Assembly (NCBI GenBank): GCA_947184155.2
Contig: CAMXCT020003668.1
Coordinates: 562,501-626,500, forward strand
Direction of reading: 5' to 3'
DNA length: 64,000 nt
From: Cladocopium goreaui
Lineage: Eukaryota; Sar; Dinophyceae; Suessiales; Symbiodiniaceae
The notes beneath the pieces were generated by a model. That model ran no database searches, had not been told where the DNA came from, and was given only the letters and a program-made list of their open reading frames with translations. Positions 4,588 through 63,890 of this stretch are shown one piece after another (position 1 is the first letter of the stretch; every line of letters starts with the position of its first letter). The position numbers and the translations under genes are program-made.

Positions 4588-4610
4588 TAACCTCTGGTAA
4601 ACTAACATAA
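4588..4610. mobile_element. Left fragment of a MITE split by the 7.9-kb insertion
   Basis: It reads TAACCTCTGGTAAACTAACA then TAA, the normal left end of the CCCTCTGG family with one substitution. The rest of the same MITE resumes at 12494-12586. The last eight bases (TAACATAA) are the target-site duplication of the insertion. Confidence 0.75.
4603..4610. repeat. Target-site duplication, left copy (TAACATAA)
   Basis: TAACATAA directly precedes the left inverted repeat at 4611 and recurs exactly at 12494-12501 after the right one. Intact copies of this MITE contain the word only once, so the second copy was made by the insertion. Confidence 0.8.
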
Positions 4611-4632
4611 CAGTGCAGGGGCAAAGGGGGCC
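4611..4632 (+). repeat. Left terminal inverted repeat of the hAT-like element
   Basis: It begins CAGTGCAGGGGCAAAGGGGG and ends CC. It matches the reverse complement of 12472-12493 at 18 of 22 positions. Confidence 0.75.
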
Positions 4633-4677
4633 GAAGCGTGGGTTTCCGACGTTGCGCTGTGACGCTCCCGGGGGCGG

Positions 4678-5131
4678 GTGGCGCTGCGACGCTGCGACGC
4701 TGCGACGCTCCGGGGGGCGGGTGGCGCTGGGACGCTGCGACGCTGCCGTTGGGCCAGTGACGCTGCGACGCTGTTGGCGCTGCGACGCTGCGACACTGGA
4801 GTGACGCTGCGACGCTGTTGGCGCTGCGACGCTGCGACGATGCGATGCGGGAGCGACGCTGCGACGCTGTTGGCGCTGCGACGCTGCGACGCTGCGACGC
4901 GGGAGCGACGCTGCGACGCTGTTGGCGCTGCGACGCTGCGACGCTGCGACGCGGGAGCGACGCTGCGACGCTGTTGGCGCTGCGACGCTGCGACGCTGCG
5001 TCGCGGGAGCGACGCTGCGACGCTGTTGGCGCTGCGACGCTGCGACGCTGCGACGCGGGAGCGACGCTGCGACGCTGTTGGCGCTGCGACGCGGGAGCGA
5101 CGCTGCGACGCTGTTGGCGCTGCGACGCTTC
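4678..5131. repeat. GCGACGCT array with a 52-bp higher-order unit
   Basis: The basic word GCGACGCT repeats throughout. From about 4869 a 52-bp higher-order unit is regular: the marker GTTGGC occurs at 4869, 4921, 4973, 5025 and 5077, then after 36 bp at 5113. Open frames on both strands are translations of this array (arginine/alanine/serine-rich) and are not genes. Confidence 0.85.
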
Positions 5132-5384
5132 CTTCTGCAAGAGTGCACACGGCGTTGCGTCGCGGCGCGACACGGAAACCCCCATTGAAGATCGTCAATG
5201 AATGTAGAAGTTTATATGGGGGTTGTCCTAAATTACTGTTCCCACAAAGGCCTCTTGGGCCGAGCTTGCGCCAACCTTGCGCGTTTCTTGCGCGACCACA
5301 CTCCCGGATCACTTTCATCATTTCAGTTGTCTTTCATCATTATTCTCGTACTTGTTTTCGAATGTTAAATATTTAGTATTCACT
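5132..5384. repeat. Spacer holding one isolated unit of the later 56-bp satellite
   Basis: At 5184-5215 the words CATTGAAGATCGTCAATGAA and TGTAGAAGTTTA match the satellite that forms arrays at 9630-10605 and 11362-11925. A TTGCGCG-rich stretch at about 5255-5300 resembles 9500-9545. The two ends of the large unit therefore share spacer sequence. Confidence 0.6.
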
Positions 5385-6650
5385 TAGTATTTCGTACTGG
5401 GAAGTAGTTTGTGCAAGCTTTGTAGTACACAGTAGTACTGGGAAGTAGTTTGTGCAAGCTTTGTAGTACAAAGTAGTATTGGGAAGTAGTTTGTGCAAGC
5501 TTTGTAGTACAAAGTAGTACTGGGAAGTAGTTTGTGCAAGCTTTGTAGTACAAAGTAGTACTGGGAAGTAGTTTGTGCAAGCCTGTGCAAGCTTTGCAGT
5601 ACACAGTAGTACTGGGAAGTGCTTTGTGCAAGCTTTGTAGTACAAAGTAGTACTGGGAAGTGCTTTGTGCAAGCTTTGTAGTACACAGTAGTACTGGGAA
5701 GTGTTTTGTGCAAGCTTTGTAGTACAAAGTAGTACTGGGAAGTGCTTTGTGCAAGCTTTGTAGTAACCAGTAAAGTACTGGGAAGTAGTTTGTGCAAGCT
5801 TTGTAGTACACAGTAGTACTAGGAAGTAGTTTGTGCAAGCTTTGTAGTATAAAGTAGTACTGGGAAGTAGTTTGTGCAAGCTTCGTAGTGCAAAGTAGTA
5901 CTGGGAAGTAGTTTGTGCAAGCTTTGTAGTACACAATAGTACTGGGAAGTAGTTTGTGCAAGCCATGCAGTACAAAGTAGTACTGGGAAGTAGTACACAG
6001 TAGTACTGGGAAGTAGTTTGTGCAAGCCATGTAGTACAAAGTAGTACTGGGAAGTAGTTTGTGCAAGCTTTGTAGTGCAAAGTAGTACTGGGAAGTAGTT
6101 TGTGCAAGCTTTGTAGTACAAAGTAGTACTGGGAAGTGGTTTGTGCAAGCTTTGTAGTACAAAGTAGTACTGGGAAGTGGTGTGTGCAAGCTTTGTAGTA
6201 CACAGTAGTACTGGGAAGTGGTTTGTGCAAGCTTTGTAGTACACAGTAGTACTGGGAAGTGGTTTGTGCAAGCTTTGTAGTACAAAGTAGTACTGGGAAG
6301 TGGTTTGTGCAAGCTTTGTAGTACAAAGTAGTACTGGGAAGTGTTTTGTGCAAGCTTTGTAGTACAAAGTAGTACTGGGAAGTAGTTTGTGCAAGCTTTG
6401 TAGTACAAAGTAGTACTGGGAAGTGCTTTGTGCAAGCTTTGTAGTACAAAGTAGTACTGGGAAGTGTTTTGTGCAAGCTTTGTAGTACAAAGTAGTACTG
6501 GAACGTGTTTTGTGCAAGCTTTGTAGTACACAGTAGTACTGGGAAGTGCTTTGTGCAAGCTTTGTAGTACACAGTAGTACTGGGAAGTGTTTTGTGCAAG
6601 CTTTGTAGTACACAGTAGTACTGGGAAGTAGTACTGGGAAGTAGCTCTGC
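5385..6650. repeat. 41-bp satellite array, about 30 copies
   Basis: The unit has TACTGGGAAGTAGTTTGTGC followed by AAGCTTTGTAGTACAAAGTAG. Copies differ by single bases, for example AGTA/AGTG and ACAAAG/ACACAG. Because 41 is not a multiple of three and the unit has no stop in three minus-strand frames, the minus strand is open in every frame for hundreds of codons. This is a repeat artefact. Confidence 0.9.
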
Positions 6651-6788
6651 ACGTGTTGAACTTCTGTGGTTTCAGAGCGGTTTCAGAGTGGTTTCAGACC
6701 CCTTCGGGGGGTCTAGCTGACCTTGATGAAAAAAACAATTTACAGACAGAAAAGACTTGAACACAACATACAAGGAAATACATTTAAA
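6651..6788. other. Spacer between the 41-bp array and the palindrome
   Basis: Unique sequence with three close copies of GTGGTTTCAGA-like words. These also occur inside both palindrome arms. Confidence 0.5.
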
Positions 6789-6954
6789 GAGCAGATAGAT
6801 AGATAGATAAATAGATAGAGATAAAGCAGCCAACGCGGTCCGGAAGACATGCAGCAGCAGCCCGGAGATGGTGAGCAGGAAGGTGTTTCAGAGTGGTTTC
6901 AGACCTCTTTTGGGCTTGTTTTTTGGGTACCCCCAGCTTTGGGAGATGAAAAAA

Positions 6955-7007
6955 GAAAGAGAAAAGGTAGAGAAAGAGAGAGACAGAGAGAGGAAGAGGG
7001 AAAGAGA

Positions 7008-7038
<31 letters not shown>

Positions 7039-7290
7039 GGAGAGAGAGGAAGATGGAAGATGGAGACAAAAAGAAGGCGAGAGAGAGAGAGAGAGAGAGA
7101 CAGAGAGAGGAAGAGGGAGAGGAAAGAGAGAGAGCGTTGTAAATGGTGAGCAGCGGGGTGTTTCAGAGTGGTTTCAGACCTCTTTTTGTCCGTAGGCTAC
7201 CTCAGCTTTGGAGAAAAAACAGGAAAGAACGGGAAAAGAAAGAAGAGAAGGGAGAAAGAGACAGAGAGAAAGAAGAGAAGTCTTGAGACG
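6955..7290. repeat. GA-rich microsatellite tracts, left palindrome arm
   Basis: Two purine runs (GAGAGAGA, GAGGAAGAGG) are separated by TGGTGAGCAGCGGGGTGTTT. The right arm has the complementary CT-rich tracts at about 8765-9030. Open frames here are low-complexity Arg/Glu translations. Confidence 0.8.
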
Positions 7291-7394
7291 GTGAGCAGGA
7301 AGATGTGTCGAACTGGTTTCAGACCTCTTTTGGGGCCGGTTATGGGGCTACCTAGTTCTTAAGACATCCAAAAGAAGGGGCTCAAAACAGATTG

Positions 7395-8002
7395 TACTTG
7401 AAACACATGCGGTCCGGAAAGACGTGCAACGGTCCGGAAAAGCAAGCACCCAAAACGTACTCTAATCGTAGCGATTGCGGTCCGGAAAGGCATGCAGCGG
7501 TCCGGAAAAGCGAGCACCCAAAACGCACGCTAATTGTAGACATTGCAGTCCGGAAAGATGAGCAGCGGTCCGGAAAAGCAAGCACCCAAAACGTATTCTA
7601 ATTGTAGCCATTGCGGCCCGGAAAGACATGCAGCGGTCCGGAAAAGCAAGCACCCAAAACGTACTCTAATTGTAGATATCGCGGTCCGGAAAGACCTGCA
7701 GCGGTCCGGAAAAGCAAGCACCCAAAACGTACTCTAATTGTAGCCATTGTGGTCCGGAAAGACCTGCAGCGGTCCGGAAAAGCAAGCACCCAAAAAGTAC
7801 TCTAATTGTAGATAGTGTGGTCCGGAAAGACGTGCAGCGGTCCGGAAAAGCAAGCACCCAAAACGTACTCTAATTGTAGACATTACGGTCCGGAAAGACA
7901 TGCAGCGGTCCGGAAAAGCAAGCACCCAAAACGTACTCTAATTGTAGCCATTGTGGTCCGGAAAGACCTGCAGCGGTCCGGAAAAGCAAGCACCCAAAAC
8001 GT
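7395..8002. repeat. 68-bp satellite array, left arm, about 9 copies
   Basis: Each unit carries two CGGTCCGGAAA boxes (with the palindrome TCCGGA), then AGCAAGCACCCAAAACGTAC and TCTAATTGTAGNNAT. Units differ mainly at the base pair after GTAG and in the AGACATGCAG/AGACCTGCAG spacer. The regular spacing makes overlapping short frames that are not genes. Confidence 0.88.
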
Positions 8003-8046
8003 GATTGCGGTCCGGAAAAGGCATGCAGCGGTCCGGAAAGATGAGT

Positions 8047-8660
8047 ACGTTTTGGGTGCTTGCTTTTCCGGACCGCTGCATGTCTTTCCGGACCACAATG
8101 GCTACAATTAGAGTACGTTTTGGGTGCTTGCTTTTCCGGACCGCTGCAGGTCTTTCCGGACCGCAATCGCTACAATTGGAGTACGTTTTGGGTGCTTGCT
8201 TTTCCGGACCGTTGCACGTCTTTCCGGACCGCGATATCTACAATTAGAGTACGTTTTAGGTGCTTGCTTTTCCGGACCGCTGCGCGTCTTTCCGGACCGT
8301 AATGTCTACAATAAGAGTACGCGTTTTGGGTGCTTGCTTTTCCGGACCGCTGCAGGTCTTTCCGGACCACAATGGCTACAATTAGAGTACGTTTTGGGTG
8401 CTTGCTTTTCCGGACCGCTGCAGGTCTTTCCGGACCACAATGGCTACAATTAGAGTTCGTTTTGGGTGCTTGCTTTTCCGGACCGTTGCACGTCTTTCCG
8501 GACCGCGATATCTACAATTAGAGTACGTTTTAGGTGCTTGCTTTTCCGGACCGCTGCATGCCTTTCCGGACCGCAATCGCTACGATTAGAGTACGTTTTG
8601 GGTGCTTGCTTTTCCGGACCGTTGCACGTCTTTCCGGACCGCATGTGTTTCAAGTACAAT
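8047..8660. repeat. 68-bp satellite array, right arm (inverted copies)
   Basis: About nine units in opposite orientation to the left array (GTACGTTTTGGGTGCTTGCT then TTTCCGGACCG). Unit-by-unit variants, such as GCGATATCTAC and ACAATGGCTAC, occur in both arms. Confidence 0.88.
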
Positions 8661-9210
8661 ATGTTTTGAGTCCCTTCTTTTGGATGTCTTAAGAACTAGG
8701 TAGCCCCATAACCGGCCCCAAAAGACGTCTGAAACCAGTTCGACACATCTTCCTGCTCACCGTCTCAAGACTTCTTCTTTCTCTCTGTCTCTTTCTCCCT
8801 TCTCTTCTTTCTTTTCCCGTTTTTTCCTGTTTTTTCTCCAAAGCTGAGGTAGCCTACGGACAAAAAAGAGGTCTGAAACCACTCTGAAACACCCCGCTGC
8901 TCACCATTTACAACGCTCTCTCTCTCCTCTCCCTCTTCCTCTCTCTGTCTCTCTCTCTCTCTCTCTCTTTCCCTCTTCCTCTCTCTGTCTCTCTCTCTCT
9001 CTCTCTCTTTCTCTACCTTTTCTCTTTCTTTTTCCATCTCCCAAAGCTGGGGGTACCCAAAAAACAAGCCCAAAAGAGGTCTGAAACCACTCTGAAACAC
9101 CTTCCTGCTCACCATCTCCGGACTGCTGCTGCATGTCTTCCGGACCGCGTTGGCTGCTTTATCTCTATCTATCTATCTATCTATTCATCTATCTATCTAT
9201 CTATCTGCTC

Positions 9211-9629
9211 CTTTTTCTTTGGATGGCCTATTTACCACCCTGGTTATCTATGTTTATCAACTCGAGATATTAATATTTAAGATCTAAATCAGATACGGTA
9301 GTAGTAGTAGTAGTAGTTGTTGTTGTTGTAGTAGTAGTAGTAGTAATAGTAGTGGTAATGTTGTAGTAGTAGTAGTAGTAGTAGTGGTAGTAGTGGTAGT
9401 AGTGGTAGTGGTAGTAGTAGTAGTAGTCGTCGTCGTAGTAGTAGTAGTAATCAAAATGTTAACTAAAAATAGTACTTGTAATAATGATAACAATAGTACT
9501 TGCGCGTACCTTGGGCCGCCCTTGCGCGAAACTTGCGCGATGCAGGTTTTAGACCATGGGAAAAATGCGAGAATAGGTCCTTTACTAAAAACCTTTCTGG
9601 GGTTTTTGGACGGCTCCCATATATAACGG
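9211..9629. repeat. GTA trinucleotide microsatellite and flanking spacer
   Basis: From 9296 to about 9452 the sequence is mostly GTA with GTT, GTG and GTC interruptions. The following 9453-9629 is unique, with a TTGCGCG-rich stretch near 9500-9545 resembling 5255-5300. Confidence 0.85.
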
Positions 9630-10605
9630 GGCTGAAAGAATTAAACCCTTATTGAAGATCGTCCATGAATGTAGAAGTTTAACGGGGCTGGGAGAATTAA
9701 ACCCTCATTGAAGATCGTCAGTGAATGTAGAAGTTTAACGGGGCTGGGAGAATTAAACCCTCATTGAAGATCGGCCATGAATGTAGAAGTTAAACGGGGC
9801 TGGGGAGAATTAAACCCTCATTGAAGATCGTCCATGAATGTAGAAGTTTAACGGGGCTGGGGAGAATTAAACCCTCATTGAAGATCTTCAATGAATGTAG
9901 AAGTTTAACGGGGCTGGGAAGAATTAAACCCTCATTTAAGATCGTCCATGAATGTAGAAGTTTAACGGGGCTGGGAGAATTAAACCCTCATTTAAGATCG
10001 TCCATGAATGTAGAAGTTTAACGGGGCTGGGGAGAATTAAACCCTTATTGAAGATCGTCCATGAATGTAGAAGTTTAAGGGGGTGGGGAGAATTAAACCC
10101 TCATTGAAGATCCTCCATGAATGTAGAAGTTTAACGGGGCTGGGGAGAATTAAACCCTCATTGAAGATCGTCCATGAATGTAGAAGTTTAACGGGGCTGG
10201 GAGAATTAAACCCTCGTTGAAGATCGTCAGTGAATGTAGAAGTTTAACGGGGGTGGGGAGAATTAAACCCTCATTGAAGATCGTCAATGAATCTAGAAGT
10301 CTAACGGGGCTGGGGAGAATTAAAACCTCATTGAAGATCGTCCATGAATGTAGAAGTTGAACGCGGGTGGGGAGAATTAAACCCTCTTTGAAGATCGTCA
10401 ATGAATGTAGAAGTTTAACGGGGCTCGGGAGAATTAAACCCTCATTGAAGATCGTCCATGAATGTAGAAGTTTAACGGGGCTGGGAGAATTAAACCCTCA
10501 TTGAAGATCGTCCATGAATGTAGAAGTTAAACGGGGCTGGGGAGAATTAAACCCTCATTGAAGATCGTCCATGAATGTAAAGTTTAACGGGGCTGGGGAG
10601 AATCC
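9630..10605. repeat. 56-bp satellite array, first block, about 17 copies
   Basis: The unit contains AGAATTAAACCCTCATTGAA, GATCGTCCATGAATGTAGAA and GTTTAACGGGGCTGGG. Units are 55-57 bp long, varying in the final G run. The same unit occurs alone near 5184 and as a second block at 11362-11925. Confidence 0.9.
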
Positions 10606-11361
10606 GCCCGCACCGAAGGTGCTGGGGCGTGATCTTCCGGATGGCACTCGTAAAAGGTTACAGGTTTACCTGGGGGGGGGGGGGCATTTTTCGGCCAAAA
10701 CCTCCTGTTTTTGATAGGTCGTGACGCTCGCCTTCAAAAAACACTGTAAAAAACAGTACGGAAGACACCTGTTCGTGAACGTGCCCGTCCAAAATCGGCA
10801 AGCGAAAAGTGAAAAAAACCCGTGTTTTTCAACTTTTTGACCTCAATTTTTTGGTTTGCAACATCTTTTTTTGCGGTTCCGCAGGTGGCCGGGCCCGGAG
10901 GCGGATTTTTGAGTTTTTGGACCCGTTTTCGGACTGATTTTCGTCGTTTTGTGATAGCAGAAACACTGGTTTTTACAGTGTTTTTCTGTTTTCTGCATGC
11001 TTGACGGCTAGCTTCAAAACTTCCAAAAACCTCGTGAAAACATCGTAAATACCAGTGTTTTTTGACGTTGGTTAAAAAAACACTGTAAATTACAGTGTTT
11101 TTGGCCACCTGACCCTCAAAAACCATGGTATTTGCAGTGGTTTCTGCTTCTCACCGCGCAAAAACACTGTAAATAACAGCAATTTCGCCGTTTTTCATGT
11201 TTTTCGTTATTTTTTGAACTGCGTTGGTCCGCTATACATGGCCATCAAATTCTTCGCGTTTTTTTTTTCCGACAATCAGTACTTTCGGATGTTTTTGGTC
11301 TCAATGCCCCTGCTGTATGAGCCCAACGATGCGGTGCGGGCGGTTGCCGTCGCGAAGCGAC
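10606..11361. other. Non-repeated core between the two 56-bp blocks
   Basis: About 750 bp that is neither satellite nor MITE. It has a 12-base G run near 10673-10684 and several palindromic words built on AAACACTGTAAANNACAGTG (near 10738, 10960, 11078 and 11162). A minus-strand frame of 130 codons spans 10734-11126 but is rich in repeated NTV/KHW words from these palindromes, and no domain is recognised. This core and the ends are the only candidates for the original element body. Confidence 0.5.
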
Positions 11362-11925
11362 GTGAATTAAACCCTTATTTAAGATCGTCAAAGAAAGTAG
11401 AGGTTTAACGGGGCTGGGGAGAATTAAAACCTCATTGAAGATCGTCCATGAATGTAGAAGTTTAACGGGGCTGGGAGAATTAAACCCTCATTGAAGATCT
11501 TCGATGAATATAGAAGTTTAACGGGGCTGGGAGAATTAAACCCTCATTGAAGATCGTCCATGAATGTAGAAGTTTACCGGGGCTGGGAGAATTAAACCCT
11601 CATTTAAGATCTTCAATGAATGTAGAAGTTTAACGGGGCTGGGAGGAATCAAACCCTTATTGAAGATCTTCAATGAATGTAGAAGTTTAACGGGGCTGGG
11701 AGAATTAAACCCTCATTGAAGATCGTCAATGAATGTAGAAGTTTAACAGGGCTGGGAGAATTAAACCCTCATTGAAGATCTTCGATGAATGTAGAAGTTT
11801 AACGGGGCTGGGAAGAATTAAACCCTCATTGAAGATCGTCAATGAATGTAGAAGTTTAACGGGGCTGGGAGAATTAAACCCTCATTGAAGATCTTCAATG
11901 AATGTAGAAGTTTAACGGGGCGAGG
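11362..11925. repeat. 56-bp satellite array, second block, about 10 copies
   Basis: Same unit and orientation as 9630-10605, with variants such as GATCTTCAATGAA in place of GATCGTCCATGAA. Confidence 0.9.
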
Positions 11926-12105
11926 TAGTGTTCAGAGGGGGTCGCTGGCTTGATCTTCGAAGATGCAACATATACTCAAAGGGGGTGGCGGGGCTGATGT
12001 CTCAAGGTGCAATGTATTGTTCAGAGGGGGTTGGGGAGTTGATGTCTTGTGATGGTGAAGATGCAACATAGTGTTCAGAGGGGGTTCCAGGGCTACTGTC
12101 TCAGC
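11926..12105. repeat. Short repeats on GTTCAGAGGGGGT
   Basis: Three spaced copies of GTTCAGAGGGGGT, with GATGCAACATA between them, give a loose ~60-bp periodicity. This links the second 56-bp block to the 8-bp array. Confidence 0.6.
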
Positions 12106-12460
12106 TTGTCCGGTGGCTTCTCGGCTTCTCGGCTTGTCCGGTGGCTTCTCGGCTTCTCGGCTTCTCGGCTTGCCCGGCGGCTTCTCGGCTTCGCGGCTTC
12201 TCGGCTTCTCGGCTTCTCGGCTTCTCGGCTTGCCCGGCGGCTCCTCGGCTTCGCGGCTTCGCGGCTTCTCGGCTTCTCGGCTTGTCCGGTGGCTTCTCGG
12301 CTTCTCGGCTTCTTGGCTTCTCGGCTTGTGCCGGGCTTCTCGGCTTCTCGGCTTCTCGGCTTCTCGGCTTCTCGGCTTCTCGGCTTGTGTCGTACTTCGC
12401 GGCTTCTCGGCTTCTCGGCTTCTCGGCTTGTGTCGGGCTTCTCGGCTTCTCGGCTTCTGG
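12106..12460. repeat. CGGCTTCT 8-bp minisatellite
   Basis: The octamer CGGCTTCT repeats in runs broken by CTTGTCCGGTGG, CTTGCCCGGCGG and CTTGTGTCG variants. Open frames on both strands (RLLGFSAS- and REAEKPRS-like) are artefacts. Confidence 0.88.
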
Positions 12461-12471
12461 TCGCATTTCTG

Positions 12472-12493
12472 GGCCCCTTTTGCCCGTGCTTTG
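12472..12493 (-). repeat. Right terminal inverted repeat of the hAT-like element
   Basis: The plus strand ends GGGGCCCCTTTTGCCCGTGC-type sequence and TTTG; in reverse it begins CAAAGCACGGGC. It matches the left repeat at 18 of 22 positions. Confidence 0.75.
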
Positions 12494-12586
12494 TAACATA
12501 ACTATGGAAAATCACCCTTTTGAATTAGTAAATCCACTATTTCACTGGCCATTTTCAATAGCAAACTGTTTGTTTACCAGAGGGTA
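12494..12586. mobile_element. Right fragment of the MITE split by the insertion
   Basis: It starts with the duplicated TAACATAA (12494-12501), then CTATGGAAAATCACC and the standard core, and ends TTTACCAGAGGGTA. Joined to 4588-4610 with one copy of the duplication, it gives an ordinary full-length family member of about 108 bp. Confidence 0.8.
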
Positions 12587-18578: not shown

Positions 18579-19021
18579 CTGGAGCTGGAGCTTTGACAAA
18601 CCAGGAGGGATTTACCTGGCACAACAAGCTGCTTAAAATCCATGGGATTATGGATTATTATATGGGTTTAATGGAGGTTTAATGGAGGTTTAATGGGATT
18701 TAATGGGGTTTAATGGGATGTAGTGAAATTTAATGATATACCCTCTGGTTATGACTAACAGTTCGCCATGGTAGAGGTATAGATGGCCCATAGAAATAGA
18801 TGGTTTGCCGTTCTTAACAATGGTGATTTTCCATGGCGAACTGTTAAATAACCAGATGGTAAATATCAGCAAAAATCTGGATTTCAGCAGAAAATGTGTA
18901 CAATTCTCAAGAAAACAGACATGTGGCCCCAACAGACATAGGAACTACGTGGAATATCCATGCGCAAATGAACCCTCAAGAAATCCACTGGGCCAGTAGG
19001 TCACTCTGGGTTGGTGGGTTG
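18579..19021. other. Spacer with TTTAATGG short repeats and one MITE
   Basis: TTTAATGGAGG/TTTAATGGGAT words repeat at 18665-18735, before the MITE at 18739-18861. Confidence 0.5.
18739..18861. mobile_element. MITE, CCCTCTGG family, TTATGACTAAC subtype
   Basis: TA-flanked, beginning CCCTCTGGTTATGACTAACA and ending GTTAAATAACCAGATGG. The inner block has ATAGATGGCCCATAGAAATA. The copy at 39207-39337 is the same subtype. Confidence 0.75.
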
Positions 19022-22307: not shown

Positions 22308-22427
22308 TACCCTCTAGTAAACTAACATAACTATGGAAAATCACCATGCTATTAATGGGAAAACTCACTATAAATGGCCATTTTCCCATGGTTTTCCCAT
22401 GGTTTTCCCATGGTTTACCGGAGGATA
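22308..22427. mobile_element. MITE, CCCTCTAG variant, abutting the previous copy
   Basis: It begins CCCTCTAGTAAACTAACATA and ends TGGTTTACCGGAGGA TA. The internal GGTTTTCCCAT word is triplicated (22389-22412), lengthening this copy. Confidence 0.65.
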
Positions 22428-27599: not shown

Positions 27600-27880
27600 G
27601 TAAGTTTTTTTTTTCATTTTTTTCATTTTTTTAGTTTTTAATTGTTTTTTATTTTATTTTAAAATTTTAAAATATTTTTTTTTTTATTTTTAATTATAAT
27701 AATTTTTAATTTATTTTTTATTTTATTTTTTTTTTTAATTAATTAATTAATTAATTATAATAATTTTTAATTTAATTATTTTTTATTTTATTTTAAATTA
27801 TTTTTTATTTTTAATTATAATAATTTTTAATTTAATTATTTTTATTTTTAATTATATATTTTTTTTATTTTGTAAAATTG
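27600..27880. repeat. T/A homopolymer-rich tract
   Basis: TTTTTATTTTAATTATAATA-type sequence with (TTAA)n. Confidence 0.85.
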
Positions 27881-29240
27881 TGTCAGGATACACAATTGTG
27901 TCATTGTGTCAGGATACACAATTGTGTCTTGGTCTTTTTTTGTTCTTCAAACATTTTTCATTTTTTTCATTTGTTTAAAGCTTTTACCTTTTACTTTTTA
28001 TTTTCCATCATTGAAATTTTCCAGATGCCTTCCACAGAAAATTACATCCAGGTACAAAATAGTGTGGTTTGTTTGGAGGGTACACTATTGTGTCCAGCTG
28101 CTTTCCTGAGGTCATGATTTTTTTTTTCAATCATTTCCTTTACCTTTTCCTTTGCTAGCTAAAGTGTTTTCCTTTCAATTAATTTATTTCTTAGTTTCTT
28201 TCATTTGAAATTCTCAGCAATGACCAGTTTCCCAAAATATATGATGCCTTATTAAAACCAAATAAAAAAAAAACATCACACAAACAATTTTTCAAGGGGG
28301 TAGTCCATGAGCAACCCTGATACAGAATAGTGTGGTTTGTTTGGAGGGTACACTATTGTGTCCAGCTGCTTCCTGAGGTCATGATTTTTTTGTTTTTTTC
28401 AATCATTTCCTTTACCTTTTCCTTTGCTAGCTAAAGTGTTTTCCTTTTAATTAATTCCTTTCTTAGTTTCTTTCATTTGAAATTCTCAGAAATGACCAGT
28501 TTCCCAAAATATATGATGCCTTATTAAAACCCAATTAAAAAACATCACTCAAACAATTTTTCAAGGGGGTAGTCCATGAGCAACCCTGATACAGAATAGT
28601 ATGGTTTGTTTGGAGGGTACACTATTGTGTCCAGCTGCTTTCCTGAGGCCATGATTTTTTGATTTTTTTCAATCATTTCCTTTACCTTTTCCTTTGCTAG
28701 CTGAAGTGTTTTCCTTTCAATCAATTTCTTTCTTAGTTTCTTTCATTTGAAATTCTCAGAAATGACCAGTTTCCCAAAATATATGATGCCTTATTAAAAC
28801 CCAATTAAAAAACATCACTCAAACAATTTTTCAAGGGGGTAGTCCATGAGCAACCCTGATACAGAATAGTGTGGTTTGTTTGGAGGGTACACTATTGTGT
28901 CCAGCTGCTTTCCTGAGGTCATGATTTTTTGATTTTTTCAATCATTTCCTTTACCTTTTCCTTTGCTAAAGTCTTTTTTCTTTTAATTGCTTAATTACTT
29001 TCTTAGTTTCTTTCATTTGAAATTCTCAGAAATGCCCAGTTTCCCAAAATATATGATGCCTTATTAAAACTCCATCAAAAAACATCACGCAAACAATTTT
29101 TCAAGGGGGTAGTCCATGAGCAACCCTGATACACAATAGTGTGGTTTGTTTGGAGGGTACACTATTGTGTCCAGCTGCTTCCTGAGGTTATGTTTTTTTT
29201 CAACCATTTCCTTTTCCTTTTCCTTTGCTAAAGTTTTTTT
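27881..29240. repeat. ~269-bp satellite, five copies
   Basis: The marker GTTTGTTTGGAGGGTACACT occurs at about 28067, 28335, 28604, 28874 and 29144. Each unit contains the hairpin ACACAATAGTGT ... ACACTATTGTGT around that marker, a TTTCCTTTACCTTTTCCTTT tract, and TTTCCCAAAATATATGATGC. Half-hairpin words (TACACAATTGTGTC) occur twice just before the array near 27887-27925. Confidence 0.88.
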
Positions 29241-29249
29241 CTTTTATGG

Positions 29250-30625
29250 TATTTCTATGGTATTACTATTGGATTTCTATGGAATTCCTATGAGGTCTCC
29301 ATGATGTTTCTATGATATTTCTGGAGGATTTCTATGGGATTTCTGAAGGGGTGCTATGGGAGTTCTATGGTATTCTTATGGGATTTCCATTGGATTCCTA
29401 TGGGATTTTTATGGTATTTCTATGATCTTTCCTATGGAATTTCTATTGGATTCCTGTGATGTTTCTATGATCTTTCTATGGGATTTCTGTGAGATTCTTA
29501 TGGGATTTCCATGTTATTTCTATGATCTTTCTATGGGATTTCTGTGAGATTCCTATGGGATTTCCATGTTATTTCTATGATCTTTCTATGGGATTTCCTT
29601 GTGAGATTCTTATGGGATTTCCATGTTATTTCTATGATCTTTCTATGGGATTTCTGTGAGATTCCTATGGGATTTCCATGTTATTTCTATGATCTTTCTA
29701 TGGGATGTCTGTGAGATTCTTATAGGATTTCCATGTTATTTCTATGATCTTTCTATGGGATTTCTGTGAGATTCCTATGGGATTTCCATGTTATTTCTAT
29801 GATCTTTCCATGGGATTTCTGTGAGATTCCTATGGGATTTCCATGTTATTTCTATGATCTTTCTATGGGATTTCTGTGAGATTCTTATGGGATTTCCATG
29901 TTACTTCTATGATCTTTCTATGGGATTTCTGTGAGATTCTTATGGGATTTCCATGTTATTTCTATGATCTTTCTATGGGATTTCTGTGAGATTCCTATGG
30001 GATTTCCATGTTATTTCTATGAGAGATTCCTATGGGATTTCCATGTTATTTCTATGATCTTTCTATGGGATTTCTGTGAGATTCTTATGGGATGTCCATG
30101 TTATTTCTATGATCTTTCTATGGGATTTCTGTGAGATTCCTATGGGATTTCCATGTTATTTCTATGATCTTTCTATGGGATTTCTGTGAGATTCCTATGG
30201 GATTTCCATGTTATTTCTATGATCTTTCTATGGGATTTCTGTGAGATTCTTATGGGATTTCCATTTTATTTCTATGATCTTTCTATGGGATTTCTGTGAG
30301 ATTCCTATGGGATTTCCATGTTATTTCTATGATCTTTCTGTGAGATTCCTATGGGATTTCCATGTTATTTCAGTTATTTCTATGATCTTTCTATGGGATT
30401 TCTGTGAGATTCCTATGGGATTTCCATGTTATTTCTTGATCTTTCTATGGGATTTCTGTGAGATTCCTATGGGATTTCCATGTTATTTCTATGATCTTTC
30501 TGTGAGATTTCTGTGAGATTCTTATGGGATTTCCATGTTATTTCTATGATCTTTCTATGGGGTTTCTGTGAGATTCCTATGGGATTTCCATGTTATTTCT
30601 ATGATCTTTCTATGGGATTTCCATT
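29250..30625. repeat. 55-bp satellite, over 20 copies
   Basis: The unit contains ATGATCTTTCTATGGGATTT, CTGTGAGATTCCTATGGGAT and TTCCATGTTATTTCT. The start (29250-29460) is more diverged. It interrupts the 269-bp satellite within its TTTCCTTTGCTAAAG tract. Confidence 0.9.
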
Positions 30626-31675
30626 CCCTTTACATTTTCCTTTGCTAAAACTTTTTTTATTTTCTCAATTAATTTCTTTTATTTAGAATTCTCAGAAATG
30701 CTCAATTTCCCAAAATATATGATGCCTTATTAAAACCCAATTAAAAAACATCACTCAAACAATTTTTCAAGGGGGTAGTCCATGAGCAACCCTGATACAG
30801 AATAGTGTGGTTTGTTTGAGGGTACACTATTGTGTCCAGCTGCTTCCTGAGGCTATGTTTTTTTTCAACCTTTTCCTTTTCCTTTTCCTTTGCTAAAGTT
30901 TGTTTCCTTTTACTTAGCTTCATTTTTCTTGGAATCAAAACCAAAGGCTTTCCAAAGGATTAGTTTCAGCCAAGCAAAAAAACATGAATGATCATGATAC
31001 ACAATAGTATGGTTTGTTTGAGGGTACACTATTGTGTCCAGCTGCTTCCTGAGGTGATTTTGTTTTTTAACATTCCCTTTACATTTTCCTTTGCTAAAAT
31101 TTGTTTCCTTTTACTTAGCTTCATTTTTCTTGGAATCAAAACCAAAGGCTTTCTAAAGGATTAGTTTCAGCCAACCAAAAAAAAACATGAATGATCATGA
31201 TACACAATAGTATGGTTTGTTTGAGGGTACACTATTGTGTCCAGCTGCTTCCTGAGGTGATTGTTGTTTTTTTCTTTTACTTGAAAGTAAATTGAAATCA
31301 ATTGCAAGTAAATTGAAATCAATTGAAAGCAACTTGAAATGAATATGATCATGATACACAATAGTATGGTTTGTTTGAGGGTACACTATTGTGTCCAGCT
31401 GCTTCCTGAGGTGATTTTGTTTTTTTTACATTCCCTTTACATTTTCCTTTGCTAAAGTTTGTTTCTTTTATTTTCTCAATTAGTTTCTTTTGTTTAGAAT
31501 TCTCAGAAATGCTGAATTTTCCAAAATATATGATGCCTTATTAAAACCCAATTAAAAAACATCACTCAAACAATTTTTCAAGGGGGTAGTCCATGAGCAA
31601 CCCTGATACACAATAGTATGGTTTGTTTGGGGGTACACTATTGTGTCCAGCTGCTTCCTGAGGTGATTGTTTTTT
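30626..31675. repeat. 269-bp satellite resumed, shortened variants
   Basis: The hairpin marker GTTTGTTTGAGGGTACACTA recurs near 30810, 31014, 31218, 31370 and 31623 at irregular 150-250-bp spacing. Some units lack the CCCAAAATATATGATGCC part. One copy near 31270-31340 already has TTGAAATCAATTG words of the next array. Confidence 0.8.
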
Positions 31676-32067
31676 TTCTTTTACTTGAAAGTAAATTGAA
31701 ATCAATTGCAAGTAAATTGAAATCAATTGAAAGTAGCTTGAAATGAATTGAAAGTAACTTGAATTCAATTGAAAGTAAATTGAAATCAATTGAAAGTAAA
31801 TTGAAATCAAATGAAAGTAAATTGAAATCAATTGAAAGTAACTTCAAATCAATTGAAAGTAAATTGAAATCATTTGAAAGTAAATTGAAATCAATTCAAA
31901 ATCAATTCAAATCAATTGAAAGTAAATTGAAATCAATTCAAAATAAATTCAAATCAATTGAAAGTAAATTGAAATCAATTGAAAGTAAATTCAAATCAAT
32001 TGAAAGTAAATTGAAATCAATTCAAAATCAATTCAAATCAATTGAAAGTAAATTGAAATCAATTTAA
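31676..32067. repeat. 21-bp minisatellite (ATTGAAAGTAAATTGAAATCA)
   Basis: About 18 copies. The unit is a multiple of three, so a plus-strand frame reads SIESKLK heptads for 102 codons. This mimics a coiled coil but follows from the repeat. Confidence 0.88.
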
Positions 32068-32195
32068 ATCTATCATTTTTTTTTGATTTTACCGTATTCT
32101 GTACCCGGTACCTTGTTTTTTCCACACTATTCTGTAACGCAAATTTGTTTGGGGGGGGGGGGGCCTCCCCACACTAATCAGTAACCTACATTACT

Positions 32196-36424: not shown

Positions 36425-36532
36425 TACCCTCTGGTAAACTAACATAACTATGGAAAATCACATTTTTTTCTGGGAAAATCCACTATTTCTATGGCCATTT
36501 TCAATAGCTGTTTGTATGTTTACCAGAGGGTA
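36425..36532. mobile_element. MITE, CCCTCTGG family, complete copy
   Basis: TA-flanked CCCTCTGGTAAACTAACATA left end and GTATGTTTACCAGAGGG right end, with core AAAATCCACTATTTCTATGG. Confidence 0.82.
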
Positions 36533-62100: not shown

Positions 62101-62108
62101 AACTACTT
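62101..62108. repeat. Target-site duplication, left copy (AACTACTT)
   Basis: AACTACTT precedes the left inverted repeat and recurs exactly at 63020-63027 after the right one. Confidence 0.75.
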
Positions 62109-63019
62109 GGAAAGCGGCGGATAGAACGCCGCCTGTTTTTCCAACTGTTGCGAGTTCACTTTCCCTGTGTTTTCTCAGGGTTTTTTGCTTTCGTCCATTT
62201 TTTGGACCCTTTCAAATCCTGCGAAAAACTACTTCGTTTTTGCAATGTTTTATGTATGTGGAAGTGTTCATTTCTTTTTATCACAAGCTTGGCAGGACGT
62301 GGGTTTAATTTTGACACACTTCGATAGGACTGGCGCCAGGTGCCGAAATTCTGTACAACCATTGTTTGATCAAAGTATCGATTTCAGGGTGCAGCTTGGA
62401 ACCAAAGGTTCCCTTGAGTTTTCGAGGGAAAGTTTTTCCAATGAATTCCTTTAAACTTCTCCAGTGGCGATCAATGCATTGAGTTCCTGCGACCTGCGAC
62501 GAGTGCTTGGGAATGGTGCGCAAGAGCTTGGCGTAGACCTTGTCCTGGTGGACAACTTGACGAGCGTAACATCAAGAGCGTGTCGGAAGTTCCTAGAGAA
62601 AAGTGCAGAGCGTCACAGCAAGAGCATGTCAAAAGTTCCTAGAGAAAAGTGCAAGGCGTAACATCAAGAGCGTCTTAGAAATGAGCATGTTCCACGCACT
62701 CGGAAGAGGACGTTAATACCCCACCCCACCCCACCCCAGGGAACAGTGCACAGCGTAACATCAAGAGCGTCTTAGAAAGGAGCATGTTCCACGCACTCGG
62801 AACAGGACGTTAATACCCCACCCCACCCCACCCCAGGGAACAGTGCACAGCGTAACATCAAGAGCGTCTTAGAAAGGAGCATGTTCCACGCACTCGGAAC
62901 AGGACGTTAATACCCCACACCCCACCCCAACCCATCAAAACAGCAAGAAAGCGTGACAAAAAGTAGAGGAGAAACAGAAAAACGCAGAAAAGCAGGCGGC
63001 GTTCTATCCGCCGCCTACC
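62109..63019. mobile_element. 911-bp DNA transposon-like element with 33-bp inverted repeats
   Basis: The left end 62109-62141 has GGAAAGCGGCGGATAGAACG then CCGCCTGTTTTTC. The right end read in reverse has GGTAGGCGGCGGATAGAACG then CCGCCTGCTTTTC; 30 of 33 positions match. The repeat itself can fold (GGCG ... CGCC). Flanks are the exact 8-bp duplication AACTACTT. The left interior is unique without a transposase; the right interior is a 97-bp tandem repeat. An 8-bp duplication fits hAT or several other superfamilies; the GG terminus is unlike usual hAT ends, so the superfamily is left open. Confidence 0.75.
62560..62935. repeat. 97-bp tandem repeat inside the 911-bp element
   Basis: Marker CGTCTTAGAAA at 62671, 62768 and 62865. 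The unit has GAGCATGTTCCACGCACTCG, GACGTTAATACCCCACCCCA and CAGCGTAACATCAAGAGCGT. Diverged GCGTAACATCAAGAGCGTG words start at about 62563. Each unit holds a C-rich (CCCCA)n tract. Confidence 0.85.
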
Positions 63020-63890
63020 AACTACTTAGCTCGCTTGCAAGGTAGCTACCTAGCTACCTAGCTACCTAGCTACCTACGTACCTACCCATCTAACTACTTA
63101 AATACCTAAGCAACTAAACTAACTAGCTAGCTAGCTAGCTAACTAACAAACTAACTAGCTAGCTAGCTAGCTAACAAACTAACCAAACTAAACTAACCAA
63201 AACTAAATTAAAGTAATTTACTTACATGCATGCTAACTTACTTACTAATACTAACTACTACTAACTACTACTAACTACTACTAACTACTACTAACTACCA
63301 CTGACTACTACAAACTACTACTAACTACTACTAACTACCACTGACTACTACAAACTACTACTAACTACTACTAACTACTGCAAACTACTACGAACTACTA
63401 ACTACTGCTAACTACTGCTAACTACTACTAGCTACTAGGAACTACGAATAACTACGACTTACTTTACGACTAACTACGACTACCTACGACTGACTACCAA
63501 TAACTACAACTAACTACGACTAACTACTACTGACTACGGCTAACACCGACTAACTACAACTAGTTACAACTAACTACGACAAATATGACTACCTGCGACT
63601 AACTACGACTAACTATACGACTAACTACGACTAACTACGACTAACTACGACTAACTACAACTAACTACGACTAACTACGACTAACTACGACTAACTACGA
63701 CTAACTATACGACTATATAACTAGAACTAACTACGACTAGCTACGACTAGCTACGACTAACTCCTACTAACTCCTACTAACTGCTAGTACCTGCTACTGG
63801 CTACTGCTAGCTACTACTAGCTACTACCAGCTACTAGTAGCCACTAGTAGCTACTACCAAATACTACTAACCACTACTAACTACTACTAA
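63020..63890. repeat. Target duplication and tetra-/trinucleotide field
   Basis: After AACTACTT (63020-63027) come GCTACCTA, GCTAGCTA, AACTACTACT and ACTACGACTA repeats up to about 63890. This continues the field that flanks the element on the left. Confidence 0.9.

Follow-up and report, generated by a model that had tools for sequence, protein, structure and literature searches.

Within the 64,000-nucleotide stretch of DNA analysed here (the window: contig CAMXCT020003668.1, positions 562,501 to 626,500 of the forward strand; all coordinates below are those of the window), a 7,883 bp insert at 4611–12493, filled largely with satellite DNA, splits a 108 bp miniature inverted-repeat transposable element (MITE). 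The octamer TAACATAA is present exactly at 4603–4610 and again at 12494–12501, directly flanking the insert on both sides (8 of 8 bases duplicated), and the insert begins and ends with short inverted repeats. We describe the junction, the ends and the contents of this insert, and then weigh whether it was moved by a hAT-type transposase.

The insertion and its host MITE

The host MITE is restored when the insert and one TAACATAA are removed, by joining 4588–4610 to 12502–12586. The joined sequence aligned without a break through the junction with 8 distinct places in the window (near 36425, 16585, 3087, 23837, 17162, 33797, 25969 and 18344; 75–86% identity), and a weak ninth match at 18739–18864 (67%) also spanned it. 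Two further copies, at 22308 and 38488, cover the junction but only part of the MITE. These two and the eight made up the ten copies of the copy alignment. A single exact TAACATAA stood at the junction position in 4 of the 10, within the longer CTAACATAACTATGG in three of those four; the other six had diverged at this position, and the 8 bp duplication was seen in none of the ten. The insert thus has the target-site duplication (TSD) and the empty sites, here paralogous ones in the same window, that are expected of a cut-and-paste transposon bounded by terminal inverted repeats (TIRs). One insertion event into the MITE, with duplication of 8 bp, is nearly certain.

By sequence and copy alignment, the left piece of the host MITE (4588–4610, plus strand) ends in the first TAACATAA, and the right piece (12494–12586, plus strand) ends in GTTTACCAGAGGGTA; the two copies of the TSD were placed by the copy alignment. 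The MITE family to which the host belongs lies in 2979–39337, with at least 10 copies in the window of about 104–116 bp, mostly flanked by TA. The ends of these relatives are TACCCTCTGGTAA...TTACCAGAGGGTA, and they are about 75–86% identical to the host copy.

Inverted ends and chance expectation

The left TIR (4611–4632, plus strand) reads CAGTGCAGGGGCAAAGGGGGCC and the right TIR (12472–12493, minus strand), as the reverse complement of the last 22 bases, CAAAGCACGGGCAAAAGGGGCC, both assigned by end comparison and by the random windows described below. The left end agrees with the reverse complement of the right end at 18 of 22 positions, so that TIRs stand at the insertion boundaries themselves, as in cut-and-paste DNA transposons, and the element reads CA...TG from end to end. 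Local alignment of the 50- to 54-base ends scored 30, against 27 for the best of 300 shuffles.

The chance of finding such a pair was assessed by scanning for 8 bp direct repeats joined to inverted ends agreeing at 17 or more of 22 positions, with a GC content of at least 40% and a spacing of 80–15,000 bp. Five pairs passed in the real window: the element at 4611–12493, a pair at 62101/63020, two inside a palindrome within the element, and one between two MITE copies. The last three all had self-palindromic "duplications" and were not counted as insertions. Among 1,398 block-Markov windows, 16 pairs reached 17/22 and none reached 18/22; ten simpler Markov windows yielded one pair at 16/22 and none better. 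Both null models preserve local composition and not tandem structure. When the GC filter was removed, many pairs of AT microsatellites appeared in the real window and were dropped as low complexity.

The original prediction had described a 7.9 kb insertion in a MITE with an 8 bp duplication and imperfect 22 bp inverted repeats at the ends of the insert, and all of this was borne out by the TAACATAA copies on both sides, the paralogous empty sites, and ends that none of the 1,398 random windows equalled. It had also asked whether the MITE halves might come from different loci; they make one MITE, which can be aligned across the junction with 8 copies.

Interior of the element

Tandem Repeats Finder (TRF) arrays covered 68.7% of the element, compared to 22.2% of the remaining window; the richest other 7.9 kb stretch to the right of the element (scanned in steps of 200) was 53% array. 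By arithmetic, arrays and palindrome together occupy about 80% of the element, and a nested insertion occupies about 10% more. The cargo had been predicted to be "almost entirely" arrays and a giant palindrome; the palindrome and the heavy array content were found as described, and the wording was slightly too strong. The five main array types have units of 8/52, 41, 68, 57 and 8 bp. None of them matched another by BLAST at 1e-3, and adjacent monomers of the 41, 52, 57 and 68 bp arrays match at 86–94% (TRF).

Reading from the left, and with arrays placed by TRF, a GC-rich array of the octamer CGCTGCGA occupies 4655–5129 (43 bp units at 4655–4746 and 52 bp units at 4778–5129). Beyond it a lone stray 57 bp monomer was located by sequence match at 5176–5221 (plus strand). 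It belongs with the arrays starting at 9624 and 11364, and is up to 93% identical to these although they lie 4.4 and 6.1 kb off, a resemblance suggesting that the element already contained the sequence from which at least one array arose. A 41 bp minisatellite of about 30 copies follows at 5394–6644. The palindrome at 6767–9225 was defined by alignment of its arms (6767–8016 and 8032–9225), which share the same base at 1122 of 1180 aligned positions (95%), with 84 gap positions in addition; at its centre, 68 bp arrays stand in opposite orientation (7408–8002 versus 8043–8643). A trinucleotide stretch (9298–9449) precedes the 57 bp satellite array, the left part of which (9624–10603) is separated from the right part (11364–11921) by a nested 760 bp insertion at 10604–11363 with GAAT on both sides. 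The nested insertion and the right part of the array were assigned with the help of the repeat register: the array runs in register once the 760 bp are skipped. A 44 bp repeat (11929–12047) and an array of about 40 copies of the octamer GGCTTCTC (12115–12458) complete the element.

The nested insertion has CCGCCCGCACCG at its left tip and an inverted copy 20 bp inside its right tip; the inverted ends of this insertion are weak, their score being 33 and that of the best shuffle 32. An inverted repeat around the CGCTGCGA array was rejected, since it scored 31 and shuffled sequences reached 33, and a hairpin common to 5151 and 11339 was weak, 5 of 500 shuffles being equally good.

Coding content and search for further copies

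No coding domain was recognised in the ten open reading frames (ORFs) of the element scanned with Pfam: six had matches, the best with an E value of 0.00031 (RPN1_C), and none was at the curated cut-off. Among 20 ORFs scanned outside the element none was at the cut-off either; Not1 was the only match, with an E value of 0.034 that fell short of its cut-off. Searches with Rfam and ARAGORN gave no match. The abundance of MITE copies and tandem repeats, together with the absence of recognised genes, might point to a protist such as a dinoflagellate, but a spliced-leader pattern gave 0 matches with up to 3 mismatches.

The element compared with the rest of the window gave no BLAST match at 1e-5 with the low-complexity filter on. 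The first 12 bases of the ends, with up to 2 mismatches, occur at scattered places in the window, 2 for the left end and 8 for the right. The left 22-mer end and the MITE pattern had 0 exact matches in the prokaryote collection genome_contigs, and one pattern each of the 68, 57 and 41 bp arrays and of the MITE had 0 in viral_contigs. These collections may leave out records of the window's own genome, and the exact-match scans carry little weight because the sequence is probably eukaryotic. A literature text match to the left 12-mer, in a hepatitis C assay, was taken as chance; the ends and the MITE end were otherwise unmatched.

Assignment to a transposon family

We consider that the element is probably a non-autonomous cut-and-paste transposon with imperfect 22 bp TIRs, likely moved in trans by a hAT-type transposase and inserted in the MITE with duplication of 8 bp. 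Both ends fit C-A-R-N-G, a hAT end pattern; a text search of the literature showed this pattern in none of the papers listed (8 of 75). hAT elements are described as having TIRs of 10–25 bp, an 8 bp TSD and a length of 2.5–5 kb (PMC3942097), and the duplication and the 22 bp TIRs of our element agree with this.

Several observations weigh against hAT. At 7.9 kb the element is longer than the range given. The target preference of Hermes is nTnnnnAn (PMC10368747), and TAACATAA has one of the two fixed positions on either strand, a comparison that concerns a single insertion and a criterion taken from Hermes. Between the octamer arrays that border the two ends, few 5- or 6-mers are shared, whichever orientation is compared (no null was run), so they do not resemble a common transposase-binding repeat. 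No hAT transposase was found in the 20 ORFs outside the element, the only ones there that were scanned. No second copy turned up in the window, where the 22-mer ends match only themselves when as many as 5 mismatches are allowed. The assignment to hAT is the weak link of the explanation. The element was filed as a non-autonomous TIR transposon that is hAT-like, and not as a member of hAT, which is a plausible family and the likeliest one. Of the hAT-type insertion first proposed, the 8 bp duplication and the short inverted ends fit, while the target site fits by half and the transposase was not found in the scanned ORFs.

Transposition would most likely have begun with a transposase supplied from elsewhere, which recognised the short inverted ends and excised the element at another site. 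The element would then be joined to a staggered 8 bp cut in the MITE, and repair of the gaps would leave the two copies of TAACATAA. Inside the element, slippage or unequal exchange probably enlarged the arrays, an inverted duplication of one region probably took place, and a second element probably landed in the 57 bp array. Growth of the arrays would fall partly before, and possibly partly after, insertion in the MITE.

Alternative explanations

The same kind of insertion could have been made by another superfamily with 8 bp TSDs (P/Galileo, Zisupton/Dileera or an undescribed group), and we regard this as somewhat unlikely. TSDs of 8 bp are known from Zisupton and from Zisupton-1_PGr, a member of the Dileera lineage (PMC12730594), as well as from most P insertions and three Galileo copies (PMC4168063); TAACATAA fits the hAT target incompletely; and the longest Galileo copy likewise combines inverted and tandem repeats without a transposase segment (PMC4168063). 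The arrays of Galileo type, however, sit within long terminal inverted repeats, whereas our element has a TIR of 22 bp and a palindrome in its interior. Another superfamily with TSDs of 8–9 bp, Merlin, was excluded because its ends are conserved and begin with GG (PMC8101967), whereas ours read CA...TG.

A different account concerns the contents and not the enzyme: a small non-autonomous element may have inserted first, with nearly all of the arrays and the palindrome expanding in place, so that satellites were not carried. This is a possibility of some substance, though we do not favour it. The satellite block may have arrived as the one transposed unit of the original prediction, but its arrays may also have grown after a smaller element had landed. 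Tandem arrays are common here, accounting for 22% of the remaining window, and the absence of a BLAST match between the element and the rest of the window would suit it too. The duplicated 8 bp are identical, whereas adjacent monomers match at 86–94% and the palindrome arms at 95%, and for this reason the evidence leans weakly toward arrays that are no younger than the insertion. The argument is weak, since it draws on no more than 8 bp and depends on how fast arrays turn over. Satellite DNA is also prone to misassembly, and unrelated MITE halves might have been joined to a satellite contig by an assembly or rearrangement artefact. This, or a chance repeat, is very improbable because the joined flanks align through the junction with the MITE copies, a single TAACATAA being present in 4 of 10; the halves form one MITE with no bases lost or gained beyond the 8 bp duplication, and the inverted ends coincide precisely with the break.

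Comparison with known elements

The element resembles published hAT elements in having TIRs of 10–25 bp and an 8 bp duplication (PMC3942097), and differs in having no recognised transposase, a length beyond 2.5–5 kb, a target site that half fits and few shared subterminal motifs (PMC3942097, PMC10368747). Its contents have closer counterparts elsewhere. The Symbiodinium Merlin families Sy.m_F1, Sy.k_F1 and Sy.k_F2 are DNA transposons with inverted ends and tandem repeats inside (PMC8101967). Sy.m_F1 makes 8 bp duplications, and has a 52 bp tandem repeat region that is duplicated in opposite orientation (PMC8101967). Our element shares these features with it, but Merlin ends begin with GG and Sy.m_F1 copies are 2.57 kb with a transposase, in contrast to CA...TG ends, 7.9 kb and no transposase recognised here; the array content is also far larger here. 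In Drosophila willistoni, the longest copy of Galileo (P superfamily) is likewise a long element, with inverted and direct tandem repeats, an inserted transposon and no transposase segment. It differs in that its repeats are inside kilobase-long terminal inverted repeats, and in that Galileo usually duplicates 7 bp, with the consensus GTATTAC (PMC4168063). Satellite arrays are also borne on non-autonomous DNA transposons such as the MITE miDNA4 of Xenopus tropicalis, which carries one satellite motif, compared to the five main array types and the palindrome of the present element (PMC9659126).

A gene-less transposon filled with satellites is uncommon and already precedented; the greater share and variety of the arrays, the internal palindrome and the different type of end are new. 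The content had been put forward as unusual, and it is uncommon, though the Symbiodinium Merlin families (PMC8101967) and Galileo (PMC4168063) leave it less unprecedented than was claimed.

How satellite DNA is dispersed is a standing question, and this element, mostly satellite yet bounded by inverted repeats and a clean target duplication, offers a direct example of satellites carried on a DNA transposon. It is conceivable, though we think it rather doubtful, that a family of large gene-less transposons in this genome moves entire multi-satellite blocks together with the palindrome and thereby spreads satellites over the chromosomes, with the element at 62109–63019 (below) as a parallel case from another superfamily. 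The importance of the element would rise if other copies proved to share its arrays and their order.

Other array-rich and TIR-bounded stretches

Five other array blocks (20.85–21.8, 27.9–32.1, 39.4–41.0, 46.4–47.0 and 49.9–50.7 kb) were scanned for duplications of 6–9 bp with inverted ends. No such pair was found at 46.4–47.0 or 49.9–50.7 kb. The remaining three had a few pairs at 11–13/16, AT-rich in the case of 27.9–32.1 kb, and none was convincing. The composite satellite block at 27870–32068 is made up of 270, 55, 201 and 21 bp arrays with repeated ACACTATTGTGTCC-like motifs, and has no convincing TIR or TSD border.

A second TIR-bounded element of 911 bp was found at 62109–63019, within 62101–63027. 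Its ends are identical at 30 of 33 positions, which 0 of 500 shuffles equalled. It is flanked on both sides by AACTACTT, a word with four occurrences in the window, one of them within this element and all in or near a CTAA-rich stretch. The element holds 46 bp and 97 bp tandem repeats, and with its GG...CC ends and 8 bp duplication it resembles Merlin elements with internal tandem repeats.

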